A program made the position numbers and the translations under genes. Shown one piece after another: positions 1 through 23,482 of a stretch of DNA of 23,482 nucleotides (position 1 is its first letter; each line of letters begins with the position of its first letter). The notes under the pieces were generated by a model. The model was given only the letters and a program-made list of their open reading frames with translations, was not told the DNA's origin and did not search any database. Source of the DNA: a virus; IMG/VR virus record IMGVR_UViG_3300045971_000154, positions 1 through 23,482 of that record; one strand, given 5' to 3'.

Positions 1-728
1 GTCAGCTCGACCAAGCCAGCGCCGAAGCTTCGAATCGCCTCGACGAAGTGGCGAGGGTCGGCCCCGCGGAAACCATAGATCGCTTGCCGTGGGTCGCCGA
101 AAAGGATCAGGCGGCCGTCGTTTTTGCCCGACTTGTGAAGCTTCGAATAGATCGCGAAATCGAGCGCGCTGCCGTCCTGTGCCTCGTCAACGTAAACCCG
201 GAAATCGCGGGACGTCGGCGACTCCGAAAGGATCATGTCGAAGGCGGCGAGCATCACGTCGGCATGAATCAGACGCCGGGCCCGAAGGTCGGAAAAGATC
301 GAGCGAACGAGCAACAGCGCGTTGCCGCCCTTCGGCCTGTCCATGATCCAAGCGCGCACCTGGGACACCGGCGCGTTGATCTTCGTCCGTTTGCACGTCG
401 CCTTGATCAGGGCTTCGAATTCCTTATCTTTGATCACCGTCAGCCCGCCCCACGCCGCTTTGACGTGGCGAAGGGCGAGACTGTGAAGGGTGCCGACATG
501 ACCCGGTTCCCACGCGCCGGAAGCCTTCAGGCGGTCGCGGATTTCGTTCGCCGCGGCGTTGGTGAACGTCACGACGATCTGATCGGCGGATGGGGTGCCG
601 TGGGCTTGATCGTGCTGAATTTTGGCGATCAGCGTTCGGGTCTTGCCCGCGCCCGCGCCCGCGACGACGACGCCGGAATCGAGGTTAAGGGCCGCGGCTT
701 GTTCGGCGGTGAGACTATCGGTTTTCAT
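1..728 (-). CDS. UvrD/Rep-like SF1 DNA helicase (3' end beyond window)
   Basis: Superfamily 1A helicase, expected to unwind DNA using ATP during phage replication or recombination. I read this frame directly from the reverse complement; it opens with ATG at 728 and stays open to the window edge (242 codons seen, C-terminus missing). Motifs appear in canonical order: a Q-motif-like LTAEQAAAL (res. 6-14), Walker A GAGAGKT (24-30), motif Ia TFTNAAANEI (54-63), motif Ib GTLHSLALR (79-87), motif II VDEAQD (180-185) and motif III GDPRQAIYGFRG (211-222). This is the 1A domain; the 2A domain would lie off the left edge. It starts 34 nt after the Rad50-like gene and probably shares its transcript. No Shine-Dalgarno is visible. 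It could be a UvrD/Rep/PcrA relative or a RecB-like helicase domain; the missing C-terminus would decide. Confidence 0.9.
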   Translation of the reverse strand, partial: MKTDSLTAEQAAALNLDSGVVVAGAGAGKTRTLIAKIQHDQAHGTPSADQIVVTFTNAAANEIRDRLKASGAWEPGHVGTLHSLALRHVKAAWGGLTVIKDKEFEALIKATCKRTKINAPVSQVRAWIMDRPKGGNALLLVRSIFSDLRARRLIHADVMLAAFDMILSESPTSRDFRVYVDEAQDGSALDFAIYSKLHKSGKNDGRLILFGDPRQAIYGFRGADPRHFVEAIRSFGAGLVEL

Positions 729-762
729 ATCGGTCGGGATTGTGCGTTTCGCGGGGCGTGGG

Positions 763-2808
763 TCAACCTTCAATCGAGACAGTCGAGCCGTTCAAATAGC
801 CGACTTCCAGCCCGGTTTGCGGGTCGTGGTCGAAGACAATCACCTGATCGACCAGCCCCATTTTCAGGGCACTGAACAGGTTGTCGATGATTTGCTTTTT
901 CCGCTCCGGTTCGAAGGTCGTCAGCTCGTCAATCATCGCGATCCGGATCGGCGACGTCCCGGCGATTGCCACCTGAAGCGCGGCCGCCACCGCCGCACTT
1001 TCCGACCCTGACAGCACTTCCAGCGGGAGGAATGCGTCGCCACGCATCACGCCGATTGCCGTGCCGTCGATCGCGAGTTCGCCAAGGTTCAGGCCGCACG
1101 TCACGACATTGCAAACAGTCAGCAGTGGCTTCATCGCTTCGGCCGCCAGTTCCAGCGACTTCGCCTTCGCCCATCGGGTCAGCTCGACGGCTTCACCGAG
1201 ACGGACTTCACGATCGACGTTTTCCTTCGTCATGTCGGAAAGCCGTTCCTGATCGGCGAGGTAGCGGTTCCAGAGGTCGCGCTCGTTCGCCTGTGCCGAC
1301 TCGACCTGTTGCAGCGAATCGACCGCTTCCCGGGCGACGTTCCAGCGTTTGCCGGCGACTTCGACCTGTTCGTCGGTCGGGACGTCCGCGGCGTTGAACG
1401 CCTGCCATTGTGCCGTTTCCAGCCGCAGACGTTTCAGATGCGAATCGGCGGCCGTCAGCTCGACCTTGATCGCGTCAACCGTCCGCGACGGACGGGCGAG
1501 GTCAGCTTCGCGCATGATCGCTTCCGATTCCTTCGTCGCCAAAAAGCAATCGTGATCGCGGCGTTTCACTTTCTCCTGAACCAGTTCGAACCGTGCCTCC
1601 TCGACGGCCGCGATTTCTTCGGCCGCTGCCGTCACTTCCGCGTTGGCGACGTCGAGCGCCTTTTGCGCTTCCGCCACCTGTTCGGAAAGGATGCGGTTGA
1701 TCGCGTCCGTCAGCACCTCGCCCGCGATGCCGCACGTCGGGCAACATTCCGACTTCGACAGTTCGGTCGCCCGGGCTTCAGCCGTCTGATGCGCGGCGAG
1801 CGCGTGGCGGGCATTGGCGGCCGCTGTTGCCTTGCGGGCGTTGGCGTCCCGCGCGCGCTCGTCAAAGCGACGCTGTGCCGTCTCCAGTTCGCTTGCGGTC
1901 ATCGGGTCGCTGGTTGCCTCGACCGGCGTGCTTCCATGATGGCCATCGAGCAGACGTTCCGCCCGGGTCTTCGCATCCGACCAGGATTGCCAGCCCGCGC
2001 GGGCCGTCTCCATGGCTTCGCGGATCTCTGCGACCTTGGCTTCCGCTTCGGCGATCATCATCGGCGTGATCCGTTCGCCGTCTGGTTGCTCCGGTGCCTC
2101 TTGCTGGCGGCGGGCGAGTTCGTCGAACGCTTCTTTCGCCTGACCCAGTTCGACACGCATCTCGGCGAGCTTCGCCGACGTTTCGGTCAAGCGGTCGCCG
2201 TAGAAAAGGGCCGGAGCTTCGATGGCCGACAGTGTCAGGATCGCCCGGGCGGCGGTGTCGATTTCCTGCTTCAGGAATCGGCCGACTTCGCGGGCTTCGG
2301 TTTCGAGCTGTTGCAGCCATCCGGCGGCGTTCGTCAGGCTGATGTCGAGCTTTGCCATCGCCACGCGCTTCTGTGCCTCGCCGAACACCTCGCCGTCGCC
2401 AGAGCTGGCAAGCAGGCTTTCAAGGATGCGCTGGCGGTCCGTCGGCTTCGCGTTGACGAATTCGCGGAAGTCGAGCTGTGCCGGAATGACTTTGTCCGAA
2501 TAGTCGGGCCCGGTCAGCTTGCTGGAAATCGACTTGCCGACGTTGTAGGTCCGGCCGATCTGGGTGCCGTCGGAAAGCTTGGCGCGGATGTCGAGCGTCG
2601 TCGCGCCGGACGTCATGAGTTGCACGGTCTTGCCGGGAAGCTTCCCGAGGGTCGGCAGATAGCCCAGAAGCGCGATGGTGATCGCTTGGCCGATGGCCGA
2701 CTTTCCGCCGGCATTGCGACCGATGACGGCCGTCAGATGGGTCAGGTCAGCTTCGCCGGATTTGCCTTTGAGGTTCAGGAATTGGATCCGTTCGATGGTA
2801 GTTGTCAT
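763..2808 (-). CDS. Rad50/SbcC-like ATPase with zinc hook
   Basis: A 681-aa SMC-family ATPase of the Rad50/SbcC/T4 gp46 kind. In that family the ATPase joins an Mre11/SbcD-type nuclease to process DNA ends. Walker A is GRNAGGKS (res. 30-37). Long charged, Ala/Glu-rich coiled-coil stretches (about 160-350 and 370-555) flank a CPTC zinc-hook motif (356-359, preceded by another Cys). The ABC signature is LSGSE (599-603) and Walker B is IRIAMIDE (621-628). All ATPase motifs look intact. At 681 aa it is shorter than E. coli SbcC (about 1050) and closer to phage gp46-like proteins, so the coiled coil is short. It lies 27 nt downstream of the OB-fold gene and upstream of the helicase. No nuclease partner lies in the window. 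It might instead be a RecF/RecN-like ATPase, but the zinc hook argues for Rad50. Confidence 0.9.
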   Translation of the reverse strand: MTTTIERIQFLNLKGKSGEADLTHLTAVIGRNAGGKSAIGQAITIALLGYLPTLGKLPGKTVQLMTSGATTLDIRAKLSDGTQIGRTYNVGKSISSKLTGPDYSDKVIPAQLDFREFVNAKPTDRQRILESLLASSGDGEVFGEAQKRVAMAKLDISLTNAAGWLQQLETEAREVGRFLKQEIDTAARAILTLSAIEAPALFYGDRLTETSAKLAEMRVELGQAKEAFDELARRQQEAPEQPDGERITPMMIAEAEAKVAEIREAMETARAGWQSWSDAKTRAERLLDGHHGSTPVEATSDPMTASELETAQRRFDERARDANARKATAAANARHALAAHQTAEARATELSKSECCPTCGIAGEVLTDAINRILSEQVAEAQKALDVANAEVTAAAEEIAAVEEARFELVQEKVKRRDHDCFLATKESEAIMREADLARPSRTVDAIKVELTAADSHLKRLRLETAQWQAFNAADVPTDEQVEVAGKRWNVAREAVDSLQQVESAQANERDLWNRYLADQERLSDMTKENVDREVRLGEAVELTRWAKAKSLELAAEAMKPLLTVCNVVTCGLNLGELAIDGTAIGVMRGDAFLPLEVLSGSESAAVAAALQVAIAGTSPIRIAMIDELTTFEPERKKQIIDNLFSALKMGLVDQVIVFDHDPQTGLEVGYLNGSTVSIEG

Positions 2809-2835
2809 GGTATCGTGTAGGAGAGAGGTTGAGAA

Positions 2836-3585
2836 TTAAGCTTGGAAACGTGGGTCATTGGCGGCGTTGACGACTGGCATATATCGGACCAGCCCTTCCC
2901 GGTCGGCTTTGATGAAGATCGAAGCACACGCGGCTTGCCGTTGGCTTTCGCTCATGTCCTGACCGGTCAGCTTTTTGAACGCCGGCGCTTCGTATCGCTC
3001 GACGGCGAGCATGCAGGTCAAATGAAGGTTGGCGATCTGAACAACCGTCTTTTGCGCGTCGTGAAATTCCTGTTCTTCCTTCGTGCGTTGCGGCTTGCCG
3101 CCGGTCTGCGGGGCGGGGTCAGCGGGCTTATTTGCCGGGGCGGGGTCGGCCGGATTCGTCAGGCGTTCCGTCGGCTGTTGCTGGTGTTGCTGAAGGTTCG
3201 GGGCGGCCGCCGACTGGGTTTTCGCGTCATCATAAACGATCTCGATCGTCGCGGTCGTGGTGACTTTGAGCTTCCGAATCGTGACGTCGTTTTTCGTGTC
3301 ATCGAAGACGTAAAGCCCGGTCATCGACTTATCGACCTTTGCCGTCAGAAGGATCGTTTTGCCCTTCCAACTCTTGTCGATCGCGTCCCGATCCTTGAAC
3401 ATGACCGGCAACGTGATGCCGTCGGCTTCGATTTCGGCGTTCTGGATTTGCCACTTCCCGACGCTGTTTGTTCCGCCTTTGGCGTCATACAGCTTGGTGA
3501 TGGTTCCTTTGATGGCGGCAACTGGTTGGCCGTCGGCGAGGCTGTCGAATGCGGACAGCGGAAAGATCTTCACTTCGGTTTTCAT
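2836..3585 (-). CDS. OB-fold ssDNA-binding-like protein with Gln/Pro-rich linker
   Basis: A 249-aa protein in three parts. Residues about 20-110 alternate short hydrophobic strands with Gly turns (VAAIKGTITKLYDAKGG, GKWQIQNAEIEADGITLPV, KGKTILLTAKVD), the pattern of an OB-fold. Residues about 120-170 form a low-complexity Gln/Pro/Ala linker. Residues about 170-249 are helical, with a SIFIKADREGL motif reminiscent of C-terminal parts of phage ssDNA-binding or recombination proteins (recalled, not searched). It is the first gene of the DNA-metabolism block, directly before the Rad50-like ATPase and helicase, which fits an SSB/RPA-like role; function is inferred from fold and context. The ATG at 3585 follows a 215-bp non-coding gap carrying a palindrome, so transcription probably starts nearby. 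No Shine-Dalgarno is visible. Confidence 0.65.
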   Translation of the reverse strand: MKTEVKIFPLSAFDSLADGQPVAAIKGTITKLYDAKGGTNSVGKWQIQNAEIEADGITLPVMFKDRDAIDKSWKGKTILLTAKVDKSMTGLYVFDDTKNDVTIRKLKVTTTATIEIVYDDAKTQSAAAPNLQQHQQQPTERLTNPADPAPANKPADPAPQTGGKPQRTKEEQEFHDAQKTVVQIANLHLTCMLAVERYEAPAFKKLTGQDMSESQRQAACASIFIKADREGLVRYMPVVNAANDPRFQA

Positions 3586-3697: not shown

Positions 3698-3723
3698 GTG
3701 CAAAAGAAGGCGGCCGCCGCCCC
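3698..3723 (-). terminator. Weak candidate terminator after the lysis genes
   Basis: On the minus strand GGCGG-CGG-CCGCC forms a 5-bp, all-GC stem with a 3-nt loop followed by TTCTTTTG. It lies about 80 nt downstream of the last lysis gene stop. The stem is short and the T-run interrupted, so it may be chance in GC-rich sequence. Confidence 0.25.
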
Positions 3724-3800: not shown

Positions 3801-4283
3801 TTAAACCCACTGCCACGTTGCGGCGATCATGATCGGTGGTTTCAATCCCAGCTTGCCGACGGCCGCCGGGTTCAGGTCGATGCCCGCGCCGTTCTTGATA
3901 TTCTTTCGATGCGGCATGGTGTCGCGGAGTTCACAGACGACTTCCCGGCCGTTGGCGCGGACCAATACCAGCTTGCCACGGGCCGCACTCCCGAACGGGG
4001 CCCAGTCTTCCCGCGGCAGCGCACACATCGGGCGCGGTGCGGACGTGCTGTCGCCCCACAGGCCGATTGCGTTGTCACCGAAGGCAAAGCACTCGCGATC
4101 ACTGCCGCCCCGGGCCTTGCAGCGTTTGAAGGCGAGCACGTCGGCCGGATCGGCAAAGCTCGACGCCTTGACGACGTGAACTTCGGTTGCCGGCGTCGGG
4201 ATGCTGACCGGTGTGACGGCCGTCGAGGGTTTCGGCGCGAAGATCGCGGCCGCGATGGATTTGAAGAATTCGGGGATGTTCAT
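3801..4283 (-). CDS. RlpA-like double-psi beta-barrel protein, putative lysis protein
   Basis: A 160-aa protein. The C-terminal half reads like a double-psi beta-barrel of the RlpA/barwin kind: GKLVLVRANGREVVCELRDT (103-122) followed by GAGIDLNPAAVGKLGL (132-147). This matches the RlpA pattern of a strand ending in an Asp, a Gly/Pro-containing loop, then an 'IDLS-AA--LG' segment; D121 and D136 occupy the expected acidic positions. RlpA-type barrels bind or cleave glycan strands of peptidoglycan. Four cysteines (55, 65, 87, 117) could form disulphides outside the cytoplasm, and residues 1-16 are amphipathic to hydrophobic. I chose the ATG at 4283 because it overlaps the upstream stop as ATGA; an in-frame start at 4310 would add nine residues inside the upstream gene. 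Membrane and DUF1353 genes just upstream support a lysis role, but enzymatic activity is inferred. Confidence 0.6.
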   Translation of the reverse strand: MNIPEFFKSIAAAIFAPKPSTAVTPVSIPTPATEVHVVKASSFADPADVLAFKRCKARGGSDRECFAFGDNAIGLWGDSTSAPRPMCALPREDWAPFGSAARGKLVLVRANGREVVCELRDTMPHRKNIKNGAGIDLNPAAVGKLGLKPPIMIAATWQWV

Positions 4284-4762
4284 CGGGTTGGCTTGTGCTT
4301 CACCCGGCAATACACATCCGGCCGGGGCTTGTTAAGCCAAATCCACAATGAACCCAGCGGGCCGGCGACTGCGCCGTTGTAAATGTCGCGGCCGCGAAAT
4401 CCGAGCATGGTCATCGCGTTGTAAAAAAGCCGGTCGGTTTCCGCTCGATCCCATGGAGAACAGGCGAGGTTCGGGGCCATGAACTGCCGCAGGAAATCAT
4501 GCAGGAACGCCGCCAATTCCGCGCCCTTGCTGGGTGTCCCGAACCAGCGGCCGCAGAAGTAAAAGCCGGGACTGCAAAGGTCGCTGGCGTAGCCGGCGAA
4601 GATCGTCAGTCGGTCGTCGTCGAGCACTCCCCACAAGGTTTCCTGATGCTGGAACTCATGATGCCCGCGAAAGCCCGCGCCAAGGTCAATCACCAGGTCG
4701 CAGGCGAGCACTGCGCGATATTTCCGCGATGGGTCGAAGTAAAAGCTGGAGAGCTGTTTCAT
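4280..4762 (-). CDS. DUF1353 family protein
   Basis: A 160-aa protein with the hallmarks of DUF1353 as I know them: GYASDLCSP (57-65, corresponding to 'GF-TD-AS-P'), AAFLHDFL (84-91) and RAETDRLFYNAM (106-117, corresponding to 'AD-LF--AM'). The His-Asp and Asp residues of these motifs are conserved in the family, but its biochemical function is not established to my knowledge. Such genes often sit beside phage lysis or tail-fibre genes, and here the gene is between a membrane protein and a beta-barrel protein. Both junctions are overlaps: ATGA with the downstream gene, and 4 nt with the upstream one, implying translational coupling. Confidence 0.75.
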   Translation of the reverse strand: MKQLSSFYFDPSRKYRAVLACDLVIDLGAGFRGHHEFQHQETLWGVLDDDRLTIFAGYASDLCSPGFYFCGRWFGTPSKGAELAAFLHDFLRQFMAPNLACSPWDRAETDRLFYNAMTMLGFRGRDIYNGAVAGPLGSLWIWLNKPRPDVYCRVKHKPTR

Positions 4763-5211
4763 TCGGCGGCCGCGGCTTCGGTTGGGGTGGGGGTTTCATC
4801 GGTGATCAACTTGACGCCGTTTTTCATGAGGTCGCTTTTGATCCCGTTGGACGTCTCGACAGCCCGCTTCGACTCTTCGATTCCCTGCTTCACCATGCCG
4901 CGCGTCGTAACGTTCGAACTGATCAGGACTTTCAGGCGGTTCGCCCCGTTCTTGTCGATGTTTTCCAGTTGCTCAATCACGGGCTTCAGTTGCTCGACGT
5001 TCAGCTTCGCGGCCGCCTCCGCTGCCGCGATCAGGTCGAGACGATCCTGTTCCCGCTCTTCCAGTTTTTGCCGACGTTCATCCTCCAACGCGAGGCGCGC
5101 GCTTCGGTCTTTTGTGACCTGCCAGAGCCAATGACCGACGCCGGTCGCGATCAGGGTGAGGAGTGCCCAAAATTCAGGCGTCGGGGCATAGGCAAGCAAG
5201 AAGGGTGTCAT
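4759..5211 (-). CDS. Small membrane protein with coiled coil, holin or inner-spanin candidate
   Basis: A 150-aa protein with one N-terminal hydrophobic segment (about 13-31, EFWALLTLIATGVGHWLWQV). A highly charged, Arg/Lys/Glu-rich coiled coil follows (about 34-85), then a mixed region and an acidic, Ala-rich tail. A single membrane anchor with a long coiled coil resembles inner-membrane spanins (Rz-like) or some one-TM holin-like proteins. It opens the probable lysis cassette and is preceded by a 50-bp gap with a candidate promoter whose -10 box ends only 8 nt before the ATG. No family is recognised with certainty and no embedded Rz1-like lipoprotein frame was identified. Confidence 0.55.
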   Translation of the reverse strand: MTPFLLAYAPTPEFWALLTLIATGVGHWLWQVTKDRSARLALEDERRQKLEEREQDRLDLIAAAEAAAKLNVEQLKPVIEQLENIDKNGANRLKVLISSNVTTRGMVKQGIEESKRAVETSNGIKSDLMKNGVKLITDETPTPTEAAAAE

Positions 5212-5261: not shown

Positions 5262-6176
5262 TCAACGTCGATATTCGATCAGCCCGCGCACCTGATCCGT
5301 AAGGGCTTGCATCGCAATTCGACGGACGCGCCAGTCGTAGCCCTTCAGGTCTTCTTCGCTGATGAACCCGCTCGCTTGGTTGATCCGAATATGCTCGTCA
5401 CCCGCGCCGATCCACAGGGCGAAACGTCCGGTCCAATCCTCGCCGAAGGCGGTGTCGGTCAGGCCTGGCGTCTCCGGAAGATAGATTTCGGCGAGCACGT
5501 CCCACGGTTGCCGGGTGTAGGCTTCCGGACGTCCGTCGGGGCCGTAGTTGCATGGCTCGATCTTCCGGGTGAGAAACACTTGCCCGCCGTGACAGGTTTG
5601 CACGTCATCGACGCGCGGATCCGCGCCCCAAGCGTCAACGGTGGCGGCGAAGTCGGCCGTCATCGTAGGGATCAGGACAAGCGGCCATGGCAGGGCCGTC
5701 GAGCCCGCCAACGGCGAATCGAGCACTTCCCGATGCAGTGCCGACCAGGTGAGTTCCAGCCGCAGAATTTTGCTTTCTTCGAAAAGAATCTGCGCCTCGA
5801 CGATCACGCATCCGAAATACGCGCTGATGTCGCCGGCCTCGCTGGTCGCCTCCATGATGAACGAAACCCCTTCGGCTTCCGGGTCGAGCGTCCAAACACC
5901 GCCGCCGCGGTCGGTGAGGTGCGGTTCCAGAATCCAGCGGAAGAAGTCGACGCCGATTTCGTGGCTCGTCATGAACGACCAGGCTTGGCAAATGACGTCC
6001 CGCCGGGTGAGTTGCCGGAAGACGTCGCGGCGTTCGGCCGACGTCGTGAAACCGCGCGTGACGGCGGCCGCGGTGAAACCAGGTGCGACCCACGAACCCG
6101 ACGCGACTCCGCTGCCGACCGCGGTTTCGCGGGCGAGCCTGATTTCGGTTGCGTTCAGATGCTCGATCCGGGCCAT
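5262..6176 (-). CDS. Putative tail-tube-fold structural protein
   Basis: A 304-aa protein of no certain family. Its layout resembles phage tail tube proteins: an N-terminal arm, a segment with FFRWILEPHL, a long strand pair around AYFGCVIVEAQILFEESKILRLELTW, then GGQVFLTRKIEPCNYGPDGRPEA and WDVLAEIYLPE. The tube protein encoded at 20377-21882 has the parallel elements YLGMVCDSMELNIESKKIVTGSMKF, FKSIKLAFGNNVRGKDALG and FVVTGTLNAYF in the same order. The similarity is visual and modest. The gene starts one base inside the fibre gene stop (TGATG), so it is coupled to the fibre and belongs to the tail-tip operon. Alternatives are a tail-tip or fibre-attachment protein. No Shine-Dalgarno is visible. 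Confidence 0.45.
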   Translation of the reverse strand: MARIEHLNATEIRLARETAVGSGVASGSWVAPGFTAAAVTRGFTTSAERRDVFRQLTRRDVICQAWSFMTSHEIGVDFFRWILEPHLTDRGGGVWTLDPEAEGVSFIMEATSEAGDISAYFGCVIVEAQILFEESKILRLELTWSALHREVLDSPLAGSTALPWPLVLIPTMTADFAATVDAWGADPRVDDVQTCHGGQVFLTRKIEPCNYGPDGRPEAYTRQPWDVLAEIYLPETPGLTDTAFGEDWTGRFALWIGAGDEHIRINQASGFISEEDLKGYDWRVRRIAMQALTDQVRGLIEYRR

Positions 6177-8317
6177 CAGAGTTTCAGTTCAGCGGTGTCA
6201 CAGTAGCCGTTCCAATAAATGTTCGTTGCCGCAACCCCGGTGATCTGGAAGCGAAGGCGGCCGTTGGTCGTATCGGCGCTGATCGTCAAATCCCACGTCG
6301 AAGCGCCGGCGTCGCCGTCATTCGTATTCGTTGGGGTGCCGACGATGGTCGTCGAGCCCGCGGTCGTCGCCTTCTTAATGATTCCGCTGAACGTCCAAGC
6401 CTTCACGTCGCCGGCGCTTGAACGGGCAACCAATTTCCCGCTGTATGCATAGACGGAATTGTTCGGCAGGTTGATCGTGTTGCCAGCGACCGCAGAATTC
6501 CAGTTTGCCGTCAGGTCCGTCTGAGTTGAGCCCGTTGTCTTGTAATACATCGGGTAGCGCACATTCTGAGCCTGACCCGGAAAACCGCTTCCGTCGAAAT
6601 TTCCCGGTGCTTGCACGCGCGCGCCGTGGGTTCCGCGGGTGTCGCCATAATTGCCCATCACGACGCCATAGGTCGAATCGGCGAGGTTGCTGTTTCCGCC
6701 GATGATCACGGCATAAGTTCCTGTGGCGTTGTTCGACCGGCCGCCGATCACGGTCGCATACTGGCCGCTGTTACTGTTGCTGTCGCCGCCCGTGGTAGTT
6801 CCGGCGGTGTTGGTGGCGGTGTTCTGGTTGCCGCCGCCGACAAAAGCATCCTGACCGCTGGCGGTGTTGTTCCGGCCGCCCGCGACGGTCGCCTGTGAAC
6901 CGCTCGCCGTGTTGCTGTTGCCGCCGCCGACGAAGGTGTCGGTCGAGCTGGAAGTGTTGACGCGGCCGCCCGCGACGGTCGAGCCGGTTCCGCTGGATTT
7001 GTTGGAAATCCCCCCGCCGATGGTGGTATTGTCGCCGCTCGCCACCTTGTCATTTACCGACCGGTTGAGCTGCCAATCTACCGAACTTGCGCCCCGTTTG
7101 TTGCCGCCGGTCGTCGAGTTGTCGGGGATGTTTGCCAATAGCGATCCGGTTCCTTTCGGCTTCAGCACGGCATCGACGTTTGTCGCGGCATTGGTTGCGG
7201 TGAAGCTGGCAACCGTGATTGTCGCGTTCGGTGTGCTCGAATTGATGGCTTCGGTCCAATTCGAAATCGACGCCGGCGACGCCCATGTTCCATCCCCACG
7301 CCAATACGTCGAAGAGCTGGCAGACGTCCCGCTGTTCAGGTTGGCAACGGGGAGGTTGCCCGTCACGCCCGTCGCGAGCGGCAGAGCGGTGCCGTTGGCG
7401 AGGTTGATCGCCGATGGTGTCCCGCCCGCCCCCCCGTTCGTCACAGGGCCGCCCGCAGAGCCGACAGCGATGCCCAGCGCCGTTTGAACGGATGCCGGGG
7501 GAGTGATGCCCGCCCATGTCGTCAGGTCGCTGTCGAAGGCCTGCACGTTGGTGCCGATCACCAGCCCGCAAAGCGTTCGAATCGCCGCATAGTCGGCCGC
7601 GTTCAGCACCGCCTTGACGTTTGCCGACGGGGTGAAGGTGGCGAGATAGTCGAGGTCGGCATCCCACGCCTGCACGTTGGTGCCGATCACCAATCCAAGG
7701 TTGCTTCGTGCGGTCGTGAAGTTCGTCAGGTCGCTCAGGTTGTTCGTCGATAGAAGGTCGCCACCGGCCGCCAGAGTCGCCCATGCGGGAAGCCCGGCCG
7801 TCACCTTCAGGAACTGACCAGGTGAACCGATCGGCAGGCGGACGAAGCCCCCGCCGGCGTCCCGATAGTAAATGTCGCCGTCGGCATCGCCCCCGACGTT
7901 GATGAAGGGATTGGTCAGCGTTTTGTTGCTCAACGTCTGAACGTCATCATGTCCGACCGCGTTGCCCGATGGGGCGGTCTTCAGCGCCCATGCGGCGAGG
8001 TCGGCGTCGTATCCCTGCACGTCGGTGCCGATCGCAAGCCCGATATTCGAGCGGATCGCGGCATTGTTCGAACTGTTGAGCAACGTCCGGACGTCAGTCG
8101 TCATCGTGAAGCCGGCGAGATAGGCGAGGTCGGCGTCATACGCTTGCACGTCGGTGCCGATCACAAGCCCCAAGTTCGCCCGCCACGTTGCCGGGTTGGT
8201 CAGGCCGGTGCCGTTGGCGGCGACGCCCCCGGTTCCAGCGGTTGGGGTTGGCGGACCGGCGAACGCGATCAGCGCGGCCGAAAGATAGATGATGGGGATG
8301 GTTCGTTTTAGGTTCAT
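6176..8317 (-). CDS. Tail fibre with phage-fibre repeats and YadA-like head repeats
   Basis: A 713-aa fibre, probably trimeric and host-contacting. Residues 1-20 look like a signal peptide (Lys/Arg, then IPIIYLSAALIAFA). Residues about 45-285 carry four copies of the common fibre repeat LGLVIGTDVQAYDADL (near 49, 92, 207 and 250) plus a decayed fifth at 281. Residues 330-345 have a YWRGDGTW motif. Residues about 424-556 are 14-15-residue repeats such as NTASGSQATVAGGR, as in the left-handed beta-roll of YadA-type adhesin heads. Residues 570-713 form a beta-rich cap with Asn/Trp/Tyr. The ATG lies 3 nt after the upstream stop (TAAgccATG), which supports the start despite the odd N-terminus. Its position after the gpJ-like gene fits a receptor-binding fibre; the receptor is unknown. 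Confidence 0.85.
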   Translation of the reverse strand: MNLKRTIPIIYLSAALIAFAGPPTPTAGTGGVAANGTGLTNPATWRANLGLVIGTDVQAYDADLAYLAGFTMTTDVRTLLNSSNNAAIRSNIGLAIGTDVQGYDADLAAWALKTAPSGNAVGHDDVQTLSNKTLTNPFINVGGDADGDIYYRDAGGGFVRLPIGSPGQFLKVTAGLPAWATLAAGGDLLSTNNLSDLTNFTTARSNLGLVIGTNVQAWDADLDYLATFTPSANVKAVLNAADYAAIRTLCGLVIGTNVQAFDSDLTTWAGITPPASVQTALGIAVGSAGGPVTNGGAGGTPSAINLANGTALPLATGVTGNLPVANLNSGTSASSSTYWRGDGTWASPASISNWTEAINSSTPNATITVASFTATNAATNVDAVLKPKGTGSLLANIPDNSTTGGNKRGASSVDWQLNRSVNDKVASGDNTTIGGGISNKSSGTGSTVAGGRVNTSSSTDTFVGGGNSNTASGSQATVAGGRNNTASGQDAFVGGGNQNTATNTAGTTTGGDSNSNSGQYATVIGGRSNNATGTYAVIIGGNSNLADSTYGVVMGNYGDTRGTHGARVQAPGNFDGSGFPGQAQNVRYPMYYKTTGSTQTDLTANWNSAVAGNTINLPNNSVYAYSGKLVARSSAGDVKAWTFSGIIKKATTAGSTTIVGTPTNTNDGDAGASTWDLTISADTTNGRLRFQITGVAATNIYWNGYCDTAELKL
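6650..7048 (-). repeat. YadA-head-like 14-15-residue repeats in the fibre gene
   Basis: About nine tandem units of roughly 42-45 bp encode NxTAxGxxAxVxGGx-type repeats (fibre residues about 424-556). The units are degenerate at DNA level, though neighbouring copies share blocks such as the repeated cgcccgcgacggtcg on the plus strand. Confidence 0.75.
7536..8173 (-). repeat. Four dispersed fibre repeats encoding LGLVIGT(D/N)VQAYDADL
   Basis: Four units of about 57 bp lie near 7536, 7665, 8010 and 8140. On the plus strand each contains tgcacgt(c/t)ggtgccgatc. DNA identity is high enough to allow recombination between copies, and the protein repeat is a common element of phage tail fibres. Confidence 0.75.
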
Positions 8318-11340: not shown

Positions 11341-11813
11341 TTTGCGATGATGTTCACCGGATCGGCTTTGAGCCCTTCCCGGTCGATGCGAATGATTTCC
11401 TGAAGCCCGGGGCGGATGGTGTCAATCAAGCAGTGGTGAACCGCCCGGTGTGTCGTTACATGCCAGAAGCGACCCGCCACGACAAGCCCGACGTGGTTCG
11501 ACGTCCGCCCGACCTTGAAAATCCCTACGTCGCCGGTCGCCGGTTCCCAGCCATCGACGGCGATGCTGTGCCCGTCGGTGTAATCGAGGAACGCCCGGGC
11601 GAGCCAATTCACGCGCTGATTGAAGCCGATGTTTTGCGGATAGGTCGGCCATTGGAACGGCTGAAGGATTTCGGCCGACTGTATGGCACCGACGACGAAC
11701 CTGACACAGTCGGCACCGACTCCGGGCTTCAGACGTCGCTGACAGTGCGGCGTGCCTTCAAACTGCCGACAAAACGCCAGCGCGGCCGCTTCCCGATCCG
11801 GCGTCCAAATCAT
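11337..11813 (-). CDS. NlpC/P60 tail peptidase
   Basis: A 158-aa papain-like NlpC/P60 peptidase, expected to cleave peptidoglycan stem peptides as the tail tip passes the cell wall. The catalytic Cys lies in GADCVRFVVGA (C36). GDVGIFKVGRTSNHVGLVV carries the probable catalytic His107, and RFWHVTTHRAV supplies a third polar residue (H118 or H122). GDV before the His strand is typical. I use the ATG at 11813, which overlaps the hub gene stop as ATGA; an upstream in-frame start at 11963 would add 50 Arg-rich residues that merely shadow the hub gene. Its place between hub and tip proteins matches the peptidase in lambda (K) and GTA (gene 14) modules. Confidence 0.88.
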   Translation of the reverse strand: MIWTPDREAAALAFCRQFEGTPHCQRRLKPGVGADCVRFVVGAIQSAEILQPFQWPTYPQNIGFNQRVNWLARAFLDYTDGHSIAVDGWEPATGDVGIFKVGRTSNHVGLVVAGRFWHVTTHRAVHHCLIDTIRPGLQEIIRIDREGLKADPVNIIAK

Positions 11814-15947: not shown

Positions 15948-16519
15948 AAGGTGCGGAAAATGAGCCGATCGACGGCGGTCCGGTGGCGGGTGGTTCCGAG
16001 CATGGATTCGTCCCGGTCGCGCACGGCGAGACGTCCGGGAAAACAGTAGGCACCGGCGGCAAAGCGCGTGTGGACGCCTTCGTCAACAAGCGTCAGGATC
16101 CGCCCGTCGCGGCCGCTGATCTGCCGCCATTCCGTGCCTTGGGTGCGACTCCAGAAAAACACCCATCCGGACTGATCCCAGTCGTCGGAAATTGGCGTGT
16201 TTGCGAGCGTCACAGCGGTGTCGCCGGTCATCAGAGCGTTCACGGTCGCGCCGTGGGGCCACCATGGCACGATGACCGGTTTGCGGGACATGAGAACCGA
16301 CGCCTCGATCAGACGGCGCGCGTCGGCGTCGTTCACGTTCATCTGATATTGCATCGACAGCATCGGCCGACGCCGGCGCTGTGCGCGTTGTTCCAGGCCT
16401 CGCCGCGACCGGGTGATGTCGGTCCGGTAAATGGTCGCCTGTTGCACGCCTTGCGACCAGTCGGGAAGAACCGCGACCAGCGTCGGCGTGTCGTCGGTTG
16501 TTGGATACTCGACGCTCAT
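15944..16519 (-). CDS. Small distal-tail-like protein
   Basis: A 191-aa protein directly after the tape measure gene (4-nt gap), the usual place for a distal tail protein. Visible elements are an Arg-rich segment (RSRRGLEQRAQRRRRP, about 37-52), a helix (DADARRLIEASVLMSR), a hydrophobic strand KPVIVPWWPHG, then GDTAVTLAN, WVFFWSRTQGTEWRQI and RILTLVDEGVHTRFAAGAYCFPG. The order and spacing match the N-terminal half of the next protein, suggesting the two are paralogues. The upstream region has AGCGGAATTGAAATC before the ATG, whose GGAA is the nearest thing to a Shine-Dalgarno in the window. The ATGA overlap with the next gene implies coupling. Function is inferred from order and fold pattern. 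Confidence 0.55.
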   Translation of the reverse strand: MSVEYPTTDDTPTLVAVLPDWSQGVQQATIYRTDITRSRRGLEQRAQRRRRPMLSMQYQMNVNDADARRLIEASVLMSRKPVIVPWWPHGATVNALMTGDTAVTLANTPISDDWDQSGWVFFWSRTQGTEWRQISGRDGRILTLVDEGVHTRFAAGAYCFPGRLAVRDRDESMLGTTRHRTAVDRLIFRTL

Positions 16520-16523
16520 GATT

Positions 16524-19500
16524 TCAATTCCGCTGACCGCTCATGACCATTTTTCGGACTTGTGGGAGGTGACGGGAAATTGCGTTCACGACAGCGCCGG
16601 GGTTTTTCGCGATGGCGTCGGCAACCTCTGAGCGGTCGAGCACGTTGATGATCGTCGCCGTGCCACCGCCGACGCCGCTTTCCCGCGGTTGGCTATCCTG
16701 ACGGCTTGCCTTCAGCTCGGCTTCCAGTTCGCGGGCGCGACGACGGGTCAGGATCGTTTCGCCTTTATCGACCTTGATCATCGACTCAGCAGAAGAGACG
16801 CCGCCGGTGTGGAATTTTTGCGGAGCGCCGTTGGTGGCGAAGTTGGAAGAGCCGACGACGCCGCCGGTGTGCGCGACCTTCGTCCCACCGACTGAGTAGC
16901 CCGCCCCGCCGCCGCCGGTGTATCCCATCGCGAAAAGTATTTCCGCAATCGCGAGTTGAATCATCATCTGAACCACCATTTTGATGATGTCATTGACGAT
17001 CGAGGTCGCCATGCCGGCGAAAGCTTCCTTCAGCGATTTTGTGCCATCGACGACCGACATGATTCCGTCGGTCAGGTTCGTCGCGACCGACTGTCCGAGA
17101 TTCGCCAAACCCTTGTCCATCTGGGTTTCCAAATCGACCCACGACTTCAGAAGCTTCTGAACTTCGGTGTCGAGTTCAGTCACGACCTTCGCCTTGGGGA
17201 TCTTGTCTTCCGCGCCCCCGCTGCCGCCGCCGGTCTTCGCGATGGGGCCGCTTGGCGGGATCACTGGCGCTACATAAGGCTTCGGCGGGCCGACGAACTG
17301 CGGGGATTGGCCAAGCTTGTTATACTGATCCATGAACGCGTCACGGTTGCCGGTGCCGACCAGGGCATTCGACGCGTTGTTGATCTGACCAGGGCCAAGC
17401 GGCGTCGGGGTGAAGGTCAGCGGCTTTGGTGCCACCGGGCCAAGCGAGGTCGGCGCGACGCCAAATTGCGCCTTGCCCGCATCGACCAGGTTGCTGACCG
17501 ATGCCCATGCCTTGTAAAAGGCCTGAATGAAGGTGTTGACGACGTCGATCATCGCTTGACCCAGCGCGTTCCGGATCGCGACCGCGATGTTCGAAAGGAT
17601 GCCACCGCCACCGGTGAAAAGGTTGCCGAAGAAATCGACGACGATCTGAAACGCCCCGCTGAAATTGCCCTTCACCAGTTCGGTGATGAAGTTGATGACG
17701 GTCGTGAATCCGGACGAAACGAACTCGACGACCGACTGAATCGCTGACGACAGGCTCGAAACTGCGAAGTTGATCAGCAGGATGATTTGTGCCTGCCACA
17801 GGCTGACAAACAGGCTCGCCGCTTGCTCGATTCCAGCATAGAGCGCCAGCCGAAGCAGTTCGGTCAGTTGCCCTGAGTTGATCGCGTTGAACAGGGCCGT
17901 GATGCCGGTCGCGATCCCCTCGCCGATTGACGTCGCGACGGGGATTAGGGATTCGAGCAAGGTCGAAAGTTTGTTGATGACCGGCACAAGGGCCGTGTTC
18001 ACCGGCTCGCCAAGGCTGACCAGTAGGTCGGCCCAGATGGCTTTCAGCTTGGCAATCGCGCCCGGGAAGGTGGCGGTCATCTTCTGAGCCCCGCCCGCCA
18101 TTTTGGCGAATCCGCCCTCCATGTTTAGGAAAATGTCGATCAGGTCTTTGCTCGCGACCTTGCCGTCGGCGACCATCTTGTTCAGGGCCGCGACGTTGCC
18201 CTTCGTTAGCTTGTTCGCCAGCTCTTGAAACACCGGAACGCCCTTTTCCGCGATCTGTTGCCGAAGCTCTTCCATCGCGACGACGCCCTTCGCCTGAACC
18301 TGTGCCAGTGCGTTGCCAAGGCCTTTCGCTTCTTCGGCCGTGAGTCCGACCGCGCCGGCGATGTCATTGATCGAGCGGTTCAGCTTGATCGCGTTGTCGG
18401 GCGAGAATTGCAGCGCGATGAACTTTTTCACCGTGTCCATCGCGGGGCCAAGTTCGGCACCGGTCGCACGGCTGTTCTTCCGCAGTTCCATCAGGATGCG
18501 ATTCGCTTCCGTCACCGACCCGGTCATCGTCGTCAGCGCGACGCGCGTCCGTTGCACCGGTCCGGCCAAATCCATGCCCTCGCGAACGAGCCCCCACGAC
18601 ACCGCCAGAAGCTTGACCGCGATCACAAGCGCACCGATCACGGCGATTGCACCGGCCGCGATAGCGACGAAGCCAGCGACGCCAGCGCCCCCGGCAACCG
18701 CGCCAGCGCCAGCTTCGGAAGCACCGGCCCCGATGGCGGTCAGCGGTGGCGGGAGTCGGCCCGCGGTCGTCGCCAGTTGCGAAAGCCCGCTGTCGAGATT
18801 CTTGACCCGGTTCACGACTTGCGCGTCGATGTCGATCGTCATCCCCTTCGCCGGTCCGGTCAGGCGCGGGGCGTTGTTCGCCCGCTGCACCCGTTGGCTG
18901 GTGATCATCTGCGAATTCATCGCCGCAAGCGCGGTTGTCGTCGCGGTCGCGGCAATGCCGACGCTGGTAATTCCGGCCGCGGTGGCGGTCGAGCTGACGG
19001 CAAGGCTTGTCGAAGCAGCGGCGGCGGCGGTGGAAGCGCCTGCCATGGCACCGGCGGCGGCGGCCGAAGAAGTCGCGGCGGTCGCGTTGGTGGCATTGGC
19101 AGCGGCGGCGGCAGTGGCGGCAGTGGCGGCAGCGGCCTGCGAAGTGGTCGCCCCGGCGCTGGCGGCAGCGGCCGCGATCGTGGCGGCCCGCTGTGCCTCT
19201 TGCGCGGCGGCCAAGGCGTTGAGCCCGTTCCGCATCGCCTGAACGGTCGAGATGAAAGATACCGTGCGGCTGATGAGCTGACCGACCGGCCCGCCCATCA
19301 TTCCGGCGGCTTGCGCGGCGTCGATGATTCCCCGCTGGAAGTCATTCATTCCCCGCTTGGCATCCTGTGCCGCCCGTTCCGCCTTTTTCGCGGACGTCTG
19401 CGCTTCGTTGCCGGCGCGCCTGGCCGCTTCTTCTGCCTTCTGAAGTTCGGTCTTCGCGGTATTGCCGATGTCGGTGATTGCCCGCTTGGCGCGGTCCGCC

Positions 19501-20293: not shown

Positions 20294-20367
20294 CCCAAAA
20301 AGCCCCGCCGGGGGATTCCGGCGGGGCTGGCATCTGTCAGCCGCTATTTTTCAGCGGGGCTTTTTGG
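20294..20367 (-). terminator. Strong terminator with competing stems after the tail tube gene
   Basis: On the minus strand AGCCCCGCCGG (20328-20318) pairs with CCGGCGGGGCT (20311-20301): 11 bp, a 6-nt loop, followed by TTTTGGG. A second arm (20367-20354, CCAAAAAGCCCCGC) can instead pair over 14 bp with GCGGGGCTTTTTGG (20308-20295), enclosing the first stem's 5' half. The arrangement could also terminate rightward transcripts. It lies in the 110-bp gap after the highly expressed tail tube gene, where phages often reduce read-through into chaperone and tape measure genes. Confidence 0.8.
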
Positions 20368-20376
20368 TCGGATTCC

Positions 20377-21882
20377 TTAGTCGTCGAGCGCGTCGATGAA
20401 AAGTGTTTTGCCGGTGACGGCCTGATCCATGATCGCTTGGAAGGCGGTCTCGATCATCACGTCGGTGTTGATGGCCGTCACCGCCGGGTCGCCCTTCGCC
20501 GGCTTGGTGTTCGGCATGTAGAAATGGAGCTGATTGCCTTCCGCGTCCTGAAGGTAGAACGACAGGCCGAAAGAGGTGTGCGCCTTGATCTTCGCAGGCA
20601 AATCGGTGTTGTTGAAATAGGCGTTCAGCGTCCCGGTGACGACGAACGTCCCAAGGCCGGTATCGAAGTTTCCAACGATTCCAAGCGCATCCTTGCCGCG
20701 CACGTTGTTGCCGAATGCGAGCTTGATGCTCTTGAATTTGTCGGTCGCGACCGCGCCGTCCATCATGATCGTGCCCATGTTCGAGGCGGCGTTGAAGATC
20801 GAACCGGTTTCGGCCTGATCGTAGCCGCTGACCTGAGTCACACCGCCGGTCAGGGTGGCACCGCCGAAGGTGGCGTTCGTCATCACCTCGACAGTCGTGA
20901 TGTCGTTCCCTTGCGTGCCTTCTTCGATGGCCGTCAGTGTCATGGTGTCGCCGGCCCCGGCGGATGCGATCACGTCTTCGTTCGCTTCGGCGAACCCATC
21001 ACCGTTGATTTCGGCGATCAGGTTGTCGATAGATACTGACGCGCTGCCGCCGATCGTCACCTCGCCCGCTTCGTCGGCCGACGTCTTCCAGGTGTAAACG
21101 ACGCCGTTGATCGTCACCGTTTCGTCGGCGACGGCGTTGCCGGTCAGGGTCAGGGTTCCGGTCGCCTTGACAGGGGATACCGCGCCAGCATCGGCACCGG
21201 TTGCGCTGATCTCATTCGTCATGCCGATGAACTTCATCGAACCGGTGACGATCTTCTTCGACTCTATGTTCAGTTCCATCGAATCGCAAACCATGCCCAA
21301 ATATCGCAGATAGTAGTCAGCCCCGGCGCTGTTGATGATGCGCTTTTCGAAGTCGAAACCGACCTTGTCCTGACTGTTGCAAAGGCTCTTGCCGCTGAAG
21401 GCGTGGGTCGCGCTGATTGCATCGACGGTAATCGAGCCGGGGGCGAAAACGAGAGTCGAGCCGTCGTTCGCCTTGCCGACGATCCGCTTCGGACCGTTGT
21501 TGCCGGGGGCGACGGCACCGGTGACATTGACCAGGCTTCCGAGCGGGACGTCGTCGAAGGTTCCGGCGGCCGCGGTGACGGTTTGCGTCGAAGCGGTCAT
21601 GGTCGAGGCGATAGAAATCGCGGTGACGACCCACTCATTCCGCAGAGCGCCGGCGAAGAACGGCTGAAACGCGCGATAGGAAAGCTCGAAATTGAACCCG
21701 CCCTCCGGCTGACTGCCGACCATGACGAGGTCAGGAACTTGCCCGTCGCTGCGGATTTCCTGCGACTGCACCGTGTCTTTGGTGTTTTGCAAATCCTCGC
21801 CGGTGTAGCGAAGAAGCTGGTATGCGGCCGCGGCGGACGCGGAAAGTTTGAAGGCAAGCGAGGCTTTGTTCGCGTCGGACAT
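20377..21882 (-). CDS. Major tail tube protein with inserted beta domains
   Basis: A 501-aa tail tube protein, polymerising around the tape measure to form the tail shaft. Core elements are QEIRSDGQVPDLVMVGSQPEGGFNFELSY-type N-terminal strands (about 41-70), RYLGMVCDSMELNIESKK (193-210), FKSIKLAFGNNVRG (383-396) and FVVTGTLNAYF (413-423). Two extra segments interrupt the core. Residues about 97-158 resemble a small SH3-like beta domain. Residues about 238-349 begin ATGTLTLTGNAVADETVTINGVVYTW, a domain I have seen appended to several phage structural proteins. At 501 aa it is longer than common tube proteins (about 200-350), because of these insertions. It is preceded by a 40-bp gap, has an A-rich leader (CAAAAAACA before ATG) and no Shine-Dalgarno, and is followed by a strong terminator. 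Confidence 0.85.
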   Translation of the reverse strand: MSDANKASLAFKLSASAAAAYQLLRYTGEDLQNTKDTVQSQEIRSDGQVPDLVMVGSQPEGGFNFELSYRAFQPFFAGALRNEWVVTAISIASTMTASTQTVTAAAGTFDDVPLGSLVNVTGAVAPGNNGPKRIVGKANDGSTLVFAPGSITVDAISATHAFSGKSLCNSQDKVGFDFEKRIINSAGADYYLRYLGMVCDSMELNIESKKIVTGSMKFIGMTNEISATGADAGAVSPVKATGTLTLTGNAVADETVTINGVVYTWKTSADEAGEVTIGGSASVSIDNLIAEINGDGFAEANEDVIASAGAGDTMTLTAIEEGTQGNDITTVEVMTNATFGGATLTGGVTQVSGYDQAETGSIFNAASNMGTIMMDGAVATDKFKSIKLAFGNNVRGKDALGIVGNFDTGLGTFVVTGTLNAYFNNTDLPAKIKAHTSFGLSFYLQDAEGNQLHFYMPNTKPAKGDPAVTAINTDVMIETAFQAIMDQAVTGKTLFIDALDD

Positions 21883-21922
21883 TGTTTTTTGAGGTTGGCG
21901 GTGTAGGGGCGGGCGTCAAGTG

Positions 21923-22363: not shown

Positions 22364-22767
22364 AACTGATCCAAGATGTTTTCCAGCTCGACTTCAAGCT
22401 CTGCGAGCGACAGCAGCACGATGCCCGCCGGGGCTTGCTGTGACGAACCTTCTTCCAGATATTTCATGTAGTCGATGGACGTCGAGATAAACACGATCTG
22501 TTTCCCGTCGATCTTCTCAACCTCGCCCGAGACGTCTTTCGCGCCGGCGTATTTGCCAGCTTCGGGAAGGTAGTCGCTGGAAACCCCGACTTTGATGTCC
22601 CAGCTTGCGCGGGCGCGGCCGGTATCGACCGGGGTGCGCTTCGTGATCCGAGTGAAAAGGTCGAGCACGATCCGGACCGTCACAACCTCGACAGCAAGGT
22701 CGAGCTTCTTCGCAAACTTCGTAATGTCGAAGTTGAACGCCTGAAGGTTGTCGTCGTTCGCTCCCAT
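22360..22767 (-). CDS. HK97 gp10-like neck/tail completion protein
   Basis: A 135-aa protein with the hallmark KRTPVDTGRARASWDIKVG (43-61), matching the 'TPVDTG-AR-SW' motif of the HK97 gp10 family, which acts at the head-tail junction. SIDYMKYLEEGSSQQAPAGIV (98-116) corresponds to the 'Y---LE-G-S-QAPAGM' motif. I chose the ATG at 22767, one base after the upstream stop (TGAaATG); the longer frame reaching 23091 reads through the upstream gene and adds an Arg-rich shadow. It overlaps the tail terminator gene as ATGA. Confidence 0.88.
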   Translation of the reverse strand: MGANDDNLQAFNFDITKFAKKLDLAVEVVTVRIVLDLFTRITKRTPVDTGRARASWDIKVGVSSDYLPEAGKYAGAKDVSGEVEKIDGKQIVFISTSIDYMKYLEEGSSQQAPAGIVLLSLAELEVELENILDQL

Positions 22768-22768
22768 T

Positions 22769-23146
22769 TCATGCCCGGCCGTAAAAGATGACGACGCCGC
22801 CACCGGGCGCGACTTCCGCCCGGTAAACTTCCCAGATGACACCGTCGGACGTCTCGACCTGTCCGGTCTGGCTGAACGGCGCACCGGCCGGGTAGTCGGC
22901 CGCCTCCAAAAGGAACGACCGTTGTTTCGTGTCCACTGGCAAGGCCTTGCGCTCGTCAGCATCGTCGAACCCGAACAGCGAAACGCCCGCCAGCTCGACC
23001 AGCCACGTCGTCGCGGCCGTATCCTCGACCACGTCAACGGCCGACGTCGGGCCAAGGCGCACCGTCGAGGAATCGAACGCGTCCGGAACAAGTTCCTTGG
23101 CGACCGCGAAGCCCATGCTGATCAGCGATGTCAGGTCGAGTGCCAT
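22769..23146 (-). CDS. Head-tail connector/head closure-like protein
   Basis: A 125-aa protein directly downstream of the DnaT-like connector (the upstream stop ends at 23147, adjacent to this ATG) and upstream of the gp10-like gene. This is the position of head-closure or stopper proteins. The sequence is mainly beta strands in the C-terminal half (RSFLLEAADYPAGAPFSQTGQVETSDGVIWEVYRAEVAPGG), with a short helical N-terminus (LTSLISMGFAVAKELVPDAF). Known stoppers are of similar size and beta-rich. No diagnostic motif is recognised, so the assignment rests on synteny. Confidence 0.6.
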   Translation of the reverse strand: MALDLTSLISMGFAVAKELVPDAFDSSTVRLGPTSAVDVVEDTAATTWLVELAGVSLFGFDDADERKALPVDTKQRSFLLEAADYPAGAPFSQTGQVETSDGVIWEVYRAEVAPGGGVVIFYGRA

Positions 23147-23482
23147 TTATCCGCGGCGGGTTGAAACCATGGAGATTCGGTTCGATCCGGCCGCGCCGGT
23201 CAGCTTGCCAAGGCCTTGCAACAGTTCCTCGACGATCGAGGGGATGCGGGTCTTTTCCGCGTTGCCCTTGAACGCCACCTCGAGCGCGCCCTTGCCAAGG
23301 TTCAGGCTGGAAAGATTGTTCTGGCTGACGTCCTGTGTCACGTCGGCACTGATCAGCATCCGCGCAAGCTCGCACGTCGCCTGAATGACTGGGATCGGCA
23401 CCATGTCGGCCGAAACCTCCAAGCCGTCGTAAACCGTGCCTTCCCGCGGCCATGCAAGCGCCTGGGTGGCACTCGCACGGCT
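23147..23482 (-). CDS. DnaT-like head-tail connector (5' end beyond window)
   Basis: The frame is open to the right edge, so only the last 111 residues are visible. They begin SRASATQALAWPREGTVYDG and continue with VPIPVIQATCELARMLI. This matches the 'QALAWPR-G--DG------VP--V--A--ELA' signature of the phage family annotated as 'DnaT-like ssDNA-binding', which by genome position is generally a head-tail adaptor. The apparent TTG start at 23422 is not credible, because conserved sequence continues upstream of it. The C-terminus (LGKLTGAAGSNRISMVSTRRG) is basic. It would be the first neck gene after the head genes, which lie off the window. Confidence 0.75.
   Translation of the reverse strand, partial: SRASATQALAWPREGTVYDGLEVSADMVPIPVIQATCELARMLISADVTQDVSQNNLSSLNLGKGALEVAFKGNAEKTRIPSIVEELLQGLGKLTGAAGSNRISMVSTRRG

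Follow-up and report, generated by a model that had tools for sequence, protein, structure and literature searches.

The excess of an 8-bp palindrome in a phage contig centers on CGGCCG and probably belongs to a broad skew in short-word usage

The window, by which we mean the whole 23,482-nt stretch of viral record IMGVR_UViG_3300045971_000154, uses the 8-bp palindrome GCGGCCGC about three times as often as its genes require. The enriched unit is the hexamer CGGCCG rather than the octamer, and we consider it probable that the copies of GCGGCCGC are just the most conspicuous part of a wide-ranging bias in the phage's short words and not a discrete repeated element. This phage lineage is rare and its word use is unusually skewed, with a genome signature of the host being a plausible source of the GCGGCCGC excess.

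Exact matching recovered 21 copies of GCGGCCGC in the window and no further ones (Table 1), and the 21 start positions counted by hand in an earlier, sequence-only reading are all exact matches and form the complete list. The over-representation claimed there is real: base composition predicts 1.9 copies, dinucleotide shuffles (n = 100) gave a mean of 2.79 (sd 1.51, largest 6), and synonymous codon shuffles of the coding sequence, which holds 20 copies, gave 6.7 to 7.0, or 9.3 under the strictest scheme. By that reading's own standard, a codon-preserving shuffle returning about 20 copies would have told against the excess; in each of four versions, 1000 shuffles never yielded 20, and the top value was 18 in the strictest. 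These codon nulls rest on our own gene calls, with one ORF trimmed to 22360-22800, and overlapping genes enter them twice; for the per-phase analysis, the automatic ORF finder had misassigned the strand of some stretches of the window. The control word CGCCGGCG, which is GCGGCCGC read backwards, occurs 14 times, with codon-null expectations of 13.0 when junctions are kept and 7.8 under the freer version. Markov models of order 2, 3, 4, 5, and 6 predict 3.9, 4.4, 6.6, 14.1, and 17.6 copies of GCGGCCGC, which ranks 5, 2, 2, and 423 among the 11322 observed 8-mers at orders 2, 3, 4, and 5. With observed/expected (O/E) ratios of 1.49 at order 5 and 1.19 at order 6, the excess is accounted for by shorter words, as in a genome signature. 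The copies are randomly spaced (gap CV of 0.89 versus 0.93 simulated), and an apparent cluster of five copies in 1.1 kb (4246-5009) was discarded, being matched in 17% of simulations.

Table 1. Exact copies of GCGGCCGC in the window, with the gene and codon phase of each.
Copy	Position	Strand	Context
1	980..987	.	RecF/SbcC-like ATPase gene, phase 0 (Ala-Ala-Ala)
2	1817..1824	.	RecF/SbcC-like gene, phase 0 (AAA)
3	3203..3210	.	gene 2836-3585, phase 0 (AAA)
4	3710..3717	.	intergenic, 2836-3585 and 3801-4310 on either side
5	4246..4253	.	gene 3801-4310, phase 0 (AAA)
6	4388..4395	.	gene 4280-4762, phase 1
7	4547..4554	.	gene 4280-4762, phase 1
8	4766..4773	.	gene 4759-5211, phase 0 (AAA)
9	5009..5016	.	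gene 4759-5211, phase 0 (AAA)
10	6064..6071	.	gene 5262-6176, phase 0 (AAA)
11	6962..6969	.	tail-fibre-like gene 6176-8317, phase 1, within 45-bp repeat array
12	10290..10297	.	tail hub gene 8659-11340, phase 2
13	11782..11789	.	gene 11337-11963, phase 0 (AAA)
14	13403..13410	.	gene 12712-14331, phase 0 (AAA)
15	13925..13932	.	gene 12712-14331, phase 0 (AAA)
16	14278..14285	.	gene 12712-14331, phase 1
17	15726..15733	.	gene 14328-15947, phase 1
18	16109..16116	.	gene 15944-16519, phase 1
19	19168..19175	.	tape measure gene 16524-19553, phase 0 (AAA)
20	21566..21573	.	tail tube gene 20377-21882, phase 0 (AAA)
21	21824..21831	.	tail tube gene 20377-21882, phase 0 (AAA)

Like that of a highly iterated palindrome (HIP), the excess is independent of codon frame, with 13 copies in phase 0, every one of them coding for Ala-Ala-Ala, 6 in phase 1, and 1 in phase 2, against expectations of about 5.5, 0.8-1.0, and 0.2-0.3. 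The sequence-only reading was right that the copies fall in different frames, that one of them (at 3710, outside the gene calls) lies between genes, and that alanine codons alone do not suffice; still, 13 of the 20 coding copies are alanine runs. The intergenic copy is the only one in the window's 456 noncoding bases.

CGGCCG occurs 82 times where the codon null gives about 37 (∼2.2-fold), and it is up in every phase (7 versus 3.2-4.0, 58 versus 25-26, and 17 versus 7-9). The heptamers CGGCCGA (33 versus 14.1) and CGGCCGT (30 versus 13.6) are raised nearly as much as CGGCCGC (74 versus 29.5). Under the junction-preserving codon null CGGCCG comes first among 3269 hexamers scored, a rank that sets it apart from other words and counts against a broad skew. 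Total GGCC is as expected with codon junctions kept (170 versus 172.5), and other GGCC contexts drop as CGGCCG rises (AGGCCC 1 versus 11.8, AGGCCA 2 versus 9.7, CGGCCA 18 versus 31.8). The two flanks of GGCC vary almost independently of each other (Fisher p 0.057, OR 1.94), with p 0.12 for those of CGGCCG, and flank frequencies predict 76.7 CGGCCG and 17.6 GCGGCCGC against the 82 and 21 observed. One-base deviations from GCGGCCGC are biased to the outer positions, as reported for HIP1 (34 versus 15.4, with inner pairs at 2 versus 7.3, 24 versus 29.0, and 22 versus 19.0), and enrichment of the hexamer core suffices by itself to produce this.

The skew extends well beyond palindromes. The non-palindromic 8-mers ACCTCGCC (14 versus 1.1), AGCTCGAC (14 versus 1.2), and GACGTCCC (13 versus 1.2) all stand above GCGGCCGC at order 2. 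A similar excess of non-palindromic 8-mers of equal composition had been named beforehand as evidence that would tell against a special palindrome; the excess of these words is equal or greater, although their composition is not equal. Words more than 2.2-fold over both codon nulls comprise 80 8-mers and 56 7-mers in the window and 69 and 49 in its relative L005 (IMGVR_UViG_3300046312_000089), compared by the same criterion with 38 and 16 in the annotated phage Pan1 and 12 and 11 in the annotated phage A1432. Many biased short words, mostly explained by 5- and 6-mers and found in all frames, are what a phage or host genome signature looks like, but the window's skew exceeds that of the two annotated phages under the same analysis, and the biases are only moderately symmetric between strands (r 0.26-0.36), less so than expected of a pure DNA signature, which counts against one. 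Separately, we note that CGGGACGTC is more striking than GCGGCCGC, with 12 copies for about 1.3 expected.

Several palindromes are depleted, with GTCGAC observed once for 24 expected, GGCGCC once for 31, and GTAC absent for 20. Flank frequencies give the same picture for GTCGAC (1 versus 29.9, p 2e-18) and GGCGCC (1 versus 12.4, p 5e-6), whose loss is specific to the palindromes and leaves the half-sites unaffected. GTAC and GGCGCC have probably been eliminated by restriction-site avoidance. As described for phages in passages of PMC6286503, short palindromes of 4 and 6 bp are cleanly lost here while their non-palindromic neighbors stay at normal levels, but avoidance accounts for missing words and not by itself for an over-used CGGCCG. 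A general inflation of the retained palindromes was considered and rejected: enrichment of at least 1.5-fold is seen for 3 of the window's 30 and for 6 of the 35 in L005, versus 9% and 11% of non-palindromes.

Scans for viral relatives returned a single contig, L005. Counted in corrected reading frames against the codon nulls, its CGGCCG excess is weak (42 versus 27.8-29.7, 1.4-1.5-fold), and GCGGCCGC is not significantly up (8 versus 4.9-5.3, with 37 and 49 of 300 shuffles reaching 8). The amino acids under CGGCCG are conserved in L005 like matched residues (0.496 versus 0.485). Alanine triplets coded by the motif align there to AFA, AMA, AVA, ATA, AAA, QPA, PLP, and GTD, so that 1 of 8 is intact, and other alanine triplets are rarely intact as well (1 of 5); the idea that the motif drives alanines into the proteins was dropped on these grounds.

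Scans of genome contigs for a host with alignments of the window and L005 proteins returned no relative. Plasmid tblastn gave three distant tail-protein matches, and phage tblastn gave matches that were all below 60% identity, the RecF-like protein drawing no match at all. In GCGGCCGC density the window surpasses all 53 of the GC-matched viral loci, which are mostly shorter and so have noisier densities; pooled, they hold 69 copies, fewer than the 90.3 expected at order 2. Since none of 13 high-GC plasmids from other taxa has a comparable excess either, such a host signature was seen in no cellular replicon examined, which counts against the broad skew. The window is nonetheless not unique, because L239 (IMGVR_UViG_3300049780_000007, GC 0.683), one of 90 loci (each 6 kb or longer) chosen because two copies of GCGGCCGC lie close together in them, holds 16 further copies in 13.1 kb versus 2.7 expected. 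The palindrome profile of the window is matched by none of these 90 loci (largest r 0.31).

The sequence-only reading had likened GCGGCCGC to HIP1 (GCGATCGC). Passages of Elhai 2015 (PMC4390886) give HIP densities of 500-2500 per Mb in cyanobacteria, for whose HIP1 and alternate HIPs a methyltransferase plus repair bias has been proposed. Like the elements described in those passages, GCGGCCGC is a GC-rich, frame-independent 8-bp palindrome with a density in range (894 per Mb) and with outer bases that are least fixed. If an unsampled host carried an orphan methyltransferase that recognizes CGGCCG or GCGGCCGC together with such a repair bias, the phage might have taken on the pattern, which would fit an excess absent from the 53 GC-matched loci and a weaker CGGCCG excess in L005. 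However, HIP1 in the Synechocystis control plasmid pSYSM has an O/E of 87 by composition and 99 at order 2, against 11 and 5.4 for GCGGCCGC, which is thus ∼10 times weaker and is not an extremely over-represented, dominant octamer. The 4-to-6 flank step is more cooperative for GATC in that control (OR 5.1, p 5e-10) than for GGCC here, and neither sequence departs from independence at the 6-to-8 step. Unlike HIP1, moreover, GCGGCCGC is explained by 6-mers, is equaled or exceeded by non-palindromic words, is known from a phage and not from a host, and has no significant excess in the relative. No match to PF00145, a C5-methylase family, occurs in the window, and Pan1, the one cyanophage examined, is depleted of both CGATCG (1 versus 58.7) and GCGATCGC (0 versus 5.4), which indicates that phages do not necessarily mirror the HIP of their host. 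In the literature, a table in PMC6471742 gives CGGCCG as the commonest predicted target of a haloarchaeal dcm-type methylase group. An excess that is real, frame-independent, and beyond alanine codons stands, but the 8-bp palindrome as a HIP1-like unit is not supported. We regard an alternate HIP as quite unlikely, and it is harder still to credit that the phage's host is an unsampled high-GC bacterium whose own HIP-like, methylation-linked palindrome (core CGGCCG) has left its mark on the phage.

Restriction might also have displaced GGCC into CGGCCG, with other contexts counter-selected and CGGCCG tolerated, perhaps because it is methylated by the host. The strong palindrome-specific avoidance is consistent with this, as is a CGGCCG gain of ∼45 that matches the ∼48 lost in other GGCC contexts (summed under the junction-preserving null), a match that follows in part from the null itself, in which junction dinucleotides are held constant; yet those contexts are down by about a third and not eliminated, AGGCCT is not reduced (8 versus 5.0), and protection of CGGCCG alone needs cooperative flanks, which are weakly seen here, making such displacement unlikely. 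A pure effect of protein and codons, that is, alanine runs in a GC-rich genome, would suit the Ala-Ala-Ala copies in phase 0, genes that are GC-rich, 12% alanine, and written with GCG and GCC codons, and the pooled viral loci, where composition sets the baseline. Alanine codons explain about a third of the coding copies (∼6.7 of 20), and as a full explanation this effect is refuted by the codon shuffles and by the six phase 1 copies where about one is expected; we give it very little credence. Hardly more credible is a putative functional site at which a protein of the phage or its host would bind or recombine DNA, since the over-represented, dispersed, and frame-independent copies that would suit such a site include just one in noncoding DNA, allow no orientation, being palindromic, and are not shared with L005 at homologous sites.

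In the broad short-word skew that we favor, the excess has two layers. GC-rich, alanine-rich genes alone give about 7 copies of GCGGCCGC, and a DNA-level preference in all frames for GGCC preceded by C and followed by G lifts CGGCCG to ∼2.2 times the codon need, which roughly triples GCGGCCGC. The same genome eliminates GTAC, GGCGCC, and GTCGAC and over-uses dozens of non-palindromic words. The eliminated palindromes would be type II restriction sites that the phage avoids, and the favored words may represent a mutational and codon-context signature of the host or lineage, potentially with displacement from avoided neighbors.

If word bias is all there is, the finding matters little except as a description of a rare phage lineage whose word use is unusually skewed. 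If instead the phage does bear the mark of its host, this would be a HIP outside cyanobacteria, discovered via its phage, and a host with a HIP-like CGGCCG would make it possible to test outside that group how methylation and mismatch repair are linked to iterated palindromes.

The over-representation of GCGGCCGC that the sequence-only reading reported is real and statistically strong, as established here from direct counts, null models, reading frames, flanks and comparison sets. All 21 copies listed in that reading were exact and the list was complete, compared to a mean of 2.79 and a maximum of 6 in 100 dinucleotide shuffles, and the count exceeded expectation at each Markov order from 1 to 4. 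The octamer ranked first by z-score among the 256 palindromic 8-mers at orders 2, 3 and 4, and was also top among those scored in synonymous-codon shuffles (codon nulls). Alanine codons alone are, as proposed, an insufficient explanation: four kinds of codon shuffle gave 6.7 to 9.3 copies versus 20, a number reached in 0 of 1,000 shuffles, and the copies did fall in different frames (codon phases 13/6/1), with every phase above its expectation. About a third of the copies are thus explained by protein sequence and codon usage. The remainder reflects a frame-independent hexamer preference, and the word use of this phage is skewed in general.

The hexamer is the core CGGCCG, which was enriched 2.2-fold in every frame of the window, with total GGCC normal by the junction-preserving null. 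A C before or a G after accounted for 67% of GGCC flanks, and the two flanks were nearly independent (82 CGGCCG versus 76.7 expected, p 0.057). Enrichment by following base was 2.5-fold for CGGCCGC, 2.3-fold for CGGCCGA, 2.2-fold for CGGCCGT and 1.5-fold for CGGCCGG; the terminal G and C contribute little to the excess of GCGGCCGC, and for this reason its observed/expected ratio (O/E) fell to only 1.49 and 1.19 at Markov orders 5 and 6. Ala-Ala codon pairs showed the same taste as the flanks, with GCG-GCC (37 versus 22) and GCC-GCC (35 versus 22) above expectation and GCG-GCG below it (10 versus 22).

The window is a siphovirus-like piece of a tailed phage, a 23.5-kb virus record without tRNA genes. 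Its sole relative found, IMG/VR contig IMGVR_UViG_3300046312_000089 (L005; further handles L058-L060; 41676 bp in whole), is collinear at 29-64% identity, and searches of genome contigs with the proteins of both found no host.

Features of the window
Feature	Positions	Strand	Details
Gene content		minus	tail terminator, tail tube, tail assembly chaperones, tape measure, distal tail and hub proteins, tail fibre, SbcC/RecF-like ATPase, partial helicase
Repeats within tail-fibre-like gene	6681-6995		imperfect repeats, array with 45-bp period
Repeats within tail-fibre-like gene	7511-8176		imperfect 192-bp duplication, 73% identity
CGGGACGTC (examples)	216, 953, 1386, 5994, 7323, 8604, 10375, 11105/11110, 13499, 15861, 21552	either	positions of GACGTCCC

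The likeness to the cyanobacterial palindrome HIP1 (GCGATCGC) suggested earlier is not supported. Such words resemble GCGGCCGC in density, frame independence and outer-base deviations, but when a 60-kb portion of the Synechocystis plasmid pSYSM was run through the identical pipeline, GCGATCGC had O/E of 87 by composition, 99 at order 2 and 7.0 at order 4, compared to 11, 5.4 and 3.2 for GCGGCCGC in the window, and flank cooperativity was strong at GATC (OR 5.1, p 5e-10) versus an OR of 1.94 at GGCC. The analogy is weak. Elhai (PMC4390886) reports that, where a word is highly over-represented in a cyanobacterial genome, that genome has a methyltransferase that can act on it. We note separately that CGATCG, the core of HIP1, occurs once versus 58.7 expected in the cyanophage Pan1 (Pseudanabaena phage; L008).

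Several palindromes were scarce in the window: GTAC (0; expected 20-37), GGCGCC (1; 26-32), GTCGAC (1; 17-24), ATCGAT (1; 8-10), CAGCTG (0; 7) and GAGCTC (0; 6-7), but neighbours that differ on one side, for example AGCGCC, ATCGAC and CAGCTC, were normal or raised. Palindrome-specific loss is the pattern that type II restriction avoidance predicts, and the scarcity of GTAC, GGCGCC and GTCGAC likely reflects avoidance of restriction sites. L005 lacks a different set by Markov expectation (GCCGGC 0/89, GGCGCC 0/51, CGATCG 0/30, CGCGCG 0/29, GTAC 0/22, and CCGCGG nearly absent at 1/40), with codon nulls concurring for GGCGCC, GCCGGC and GTAC. None of 32 random viral loci was GTAC-free, yet both lineage members were.

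The density of 894 copies of GCGGCCGC per Mb was reached by none of 53 GC-matched viral loci (maximum 528), these being what remained of 125 loci, 108 of them at least 4 kb, after removal of 55 outside GC 0.56-0.68; 13 high-GC plasmids had order-3 O/E of 0.22-1.55 versus 4.77 in the window. A scan biased to close pairs of GCGGCCGC yielded one contig with comparable excess (L239, IMGVR_UViG_3300049780_000007; 16 further copies in 13.1 kb, 2.7 expected), where CGGCCG had no marked excess (42 versus 36.4).

Word use was compared across coding stretches of 23.4 kb (19.9 kb for L005), with over-use defined as at least 2.2-fold above both codon nulls. Over-used 8-mers and 7-mers numbered 80 and 56 in the window, 69 and 49 in L005, 38 and 16 in Pan1 and 12 and 11 in the annotated phage A1432; hexamers nearly eliminated were 18/944, 34/827, 9/991 and 2/1006, respectively. 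The word use of this lineage is therefore unusually uneven, and GCGGCCGC is one among many skewed words. Non-palindromic words were also over-used in the window (CTCGAC, 82 versus 35; GACGTCC, 32 versus 10), and the excess of the non-palindromic 9-mer CGGGACGTC is stronger and less explained than that of GCGGCCGC, with 12 copies, in every codon phase and both orientations, where codon nulls gave about 1.3 and never more than 6 in 500; it was absent from L005. Another word, ACCTCGCC, was over-used in both the window (14 versus 3.8, mostly in a single codon phase) and L005 (10 versus 2.0).

With reading frames in L005 set by homology and 300 shuffles per null, its 8 copies of GCGGCCGC compared to 4.9-5.3 expected (37 and 49 shuffles reached 8), so L005 has no demonstrable excess of the octamer. 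None of the copies lies at a site homologous to one in the window. Its 42 copies of CGGCCG versus 27.8-29.7 were reached in 0 and 3 shuffles, so a weaker hexamer preference is common to the lineage. We infer that this preference arises from a host or lineage signature.
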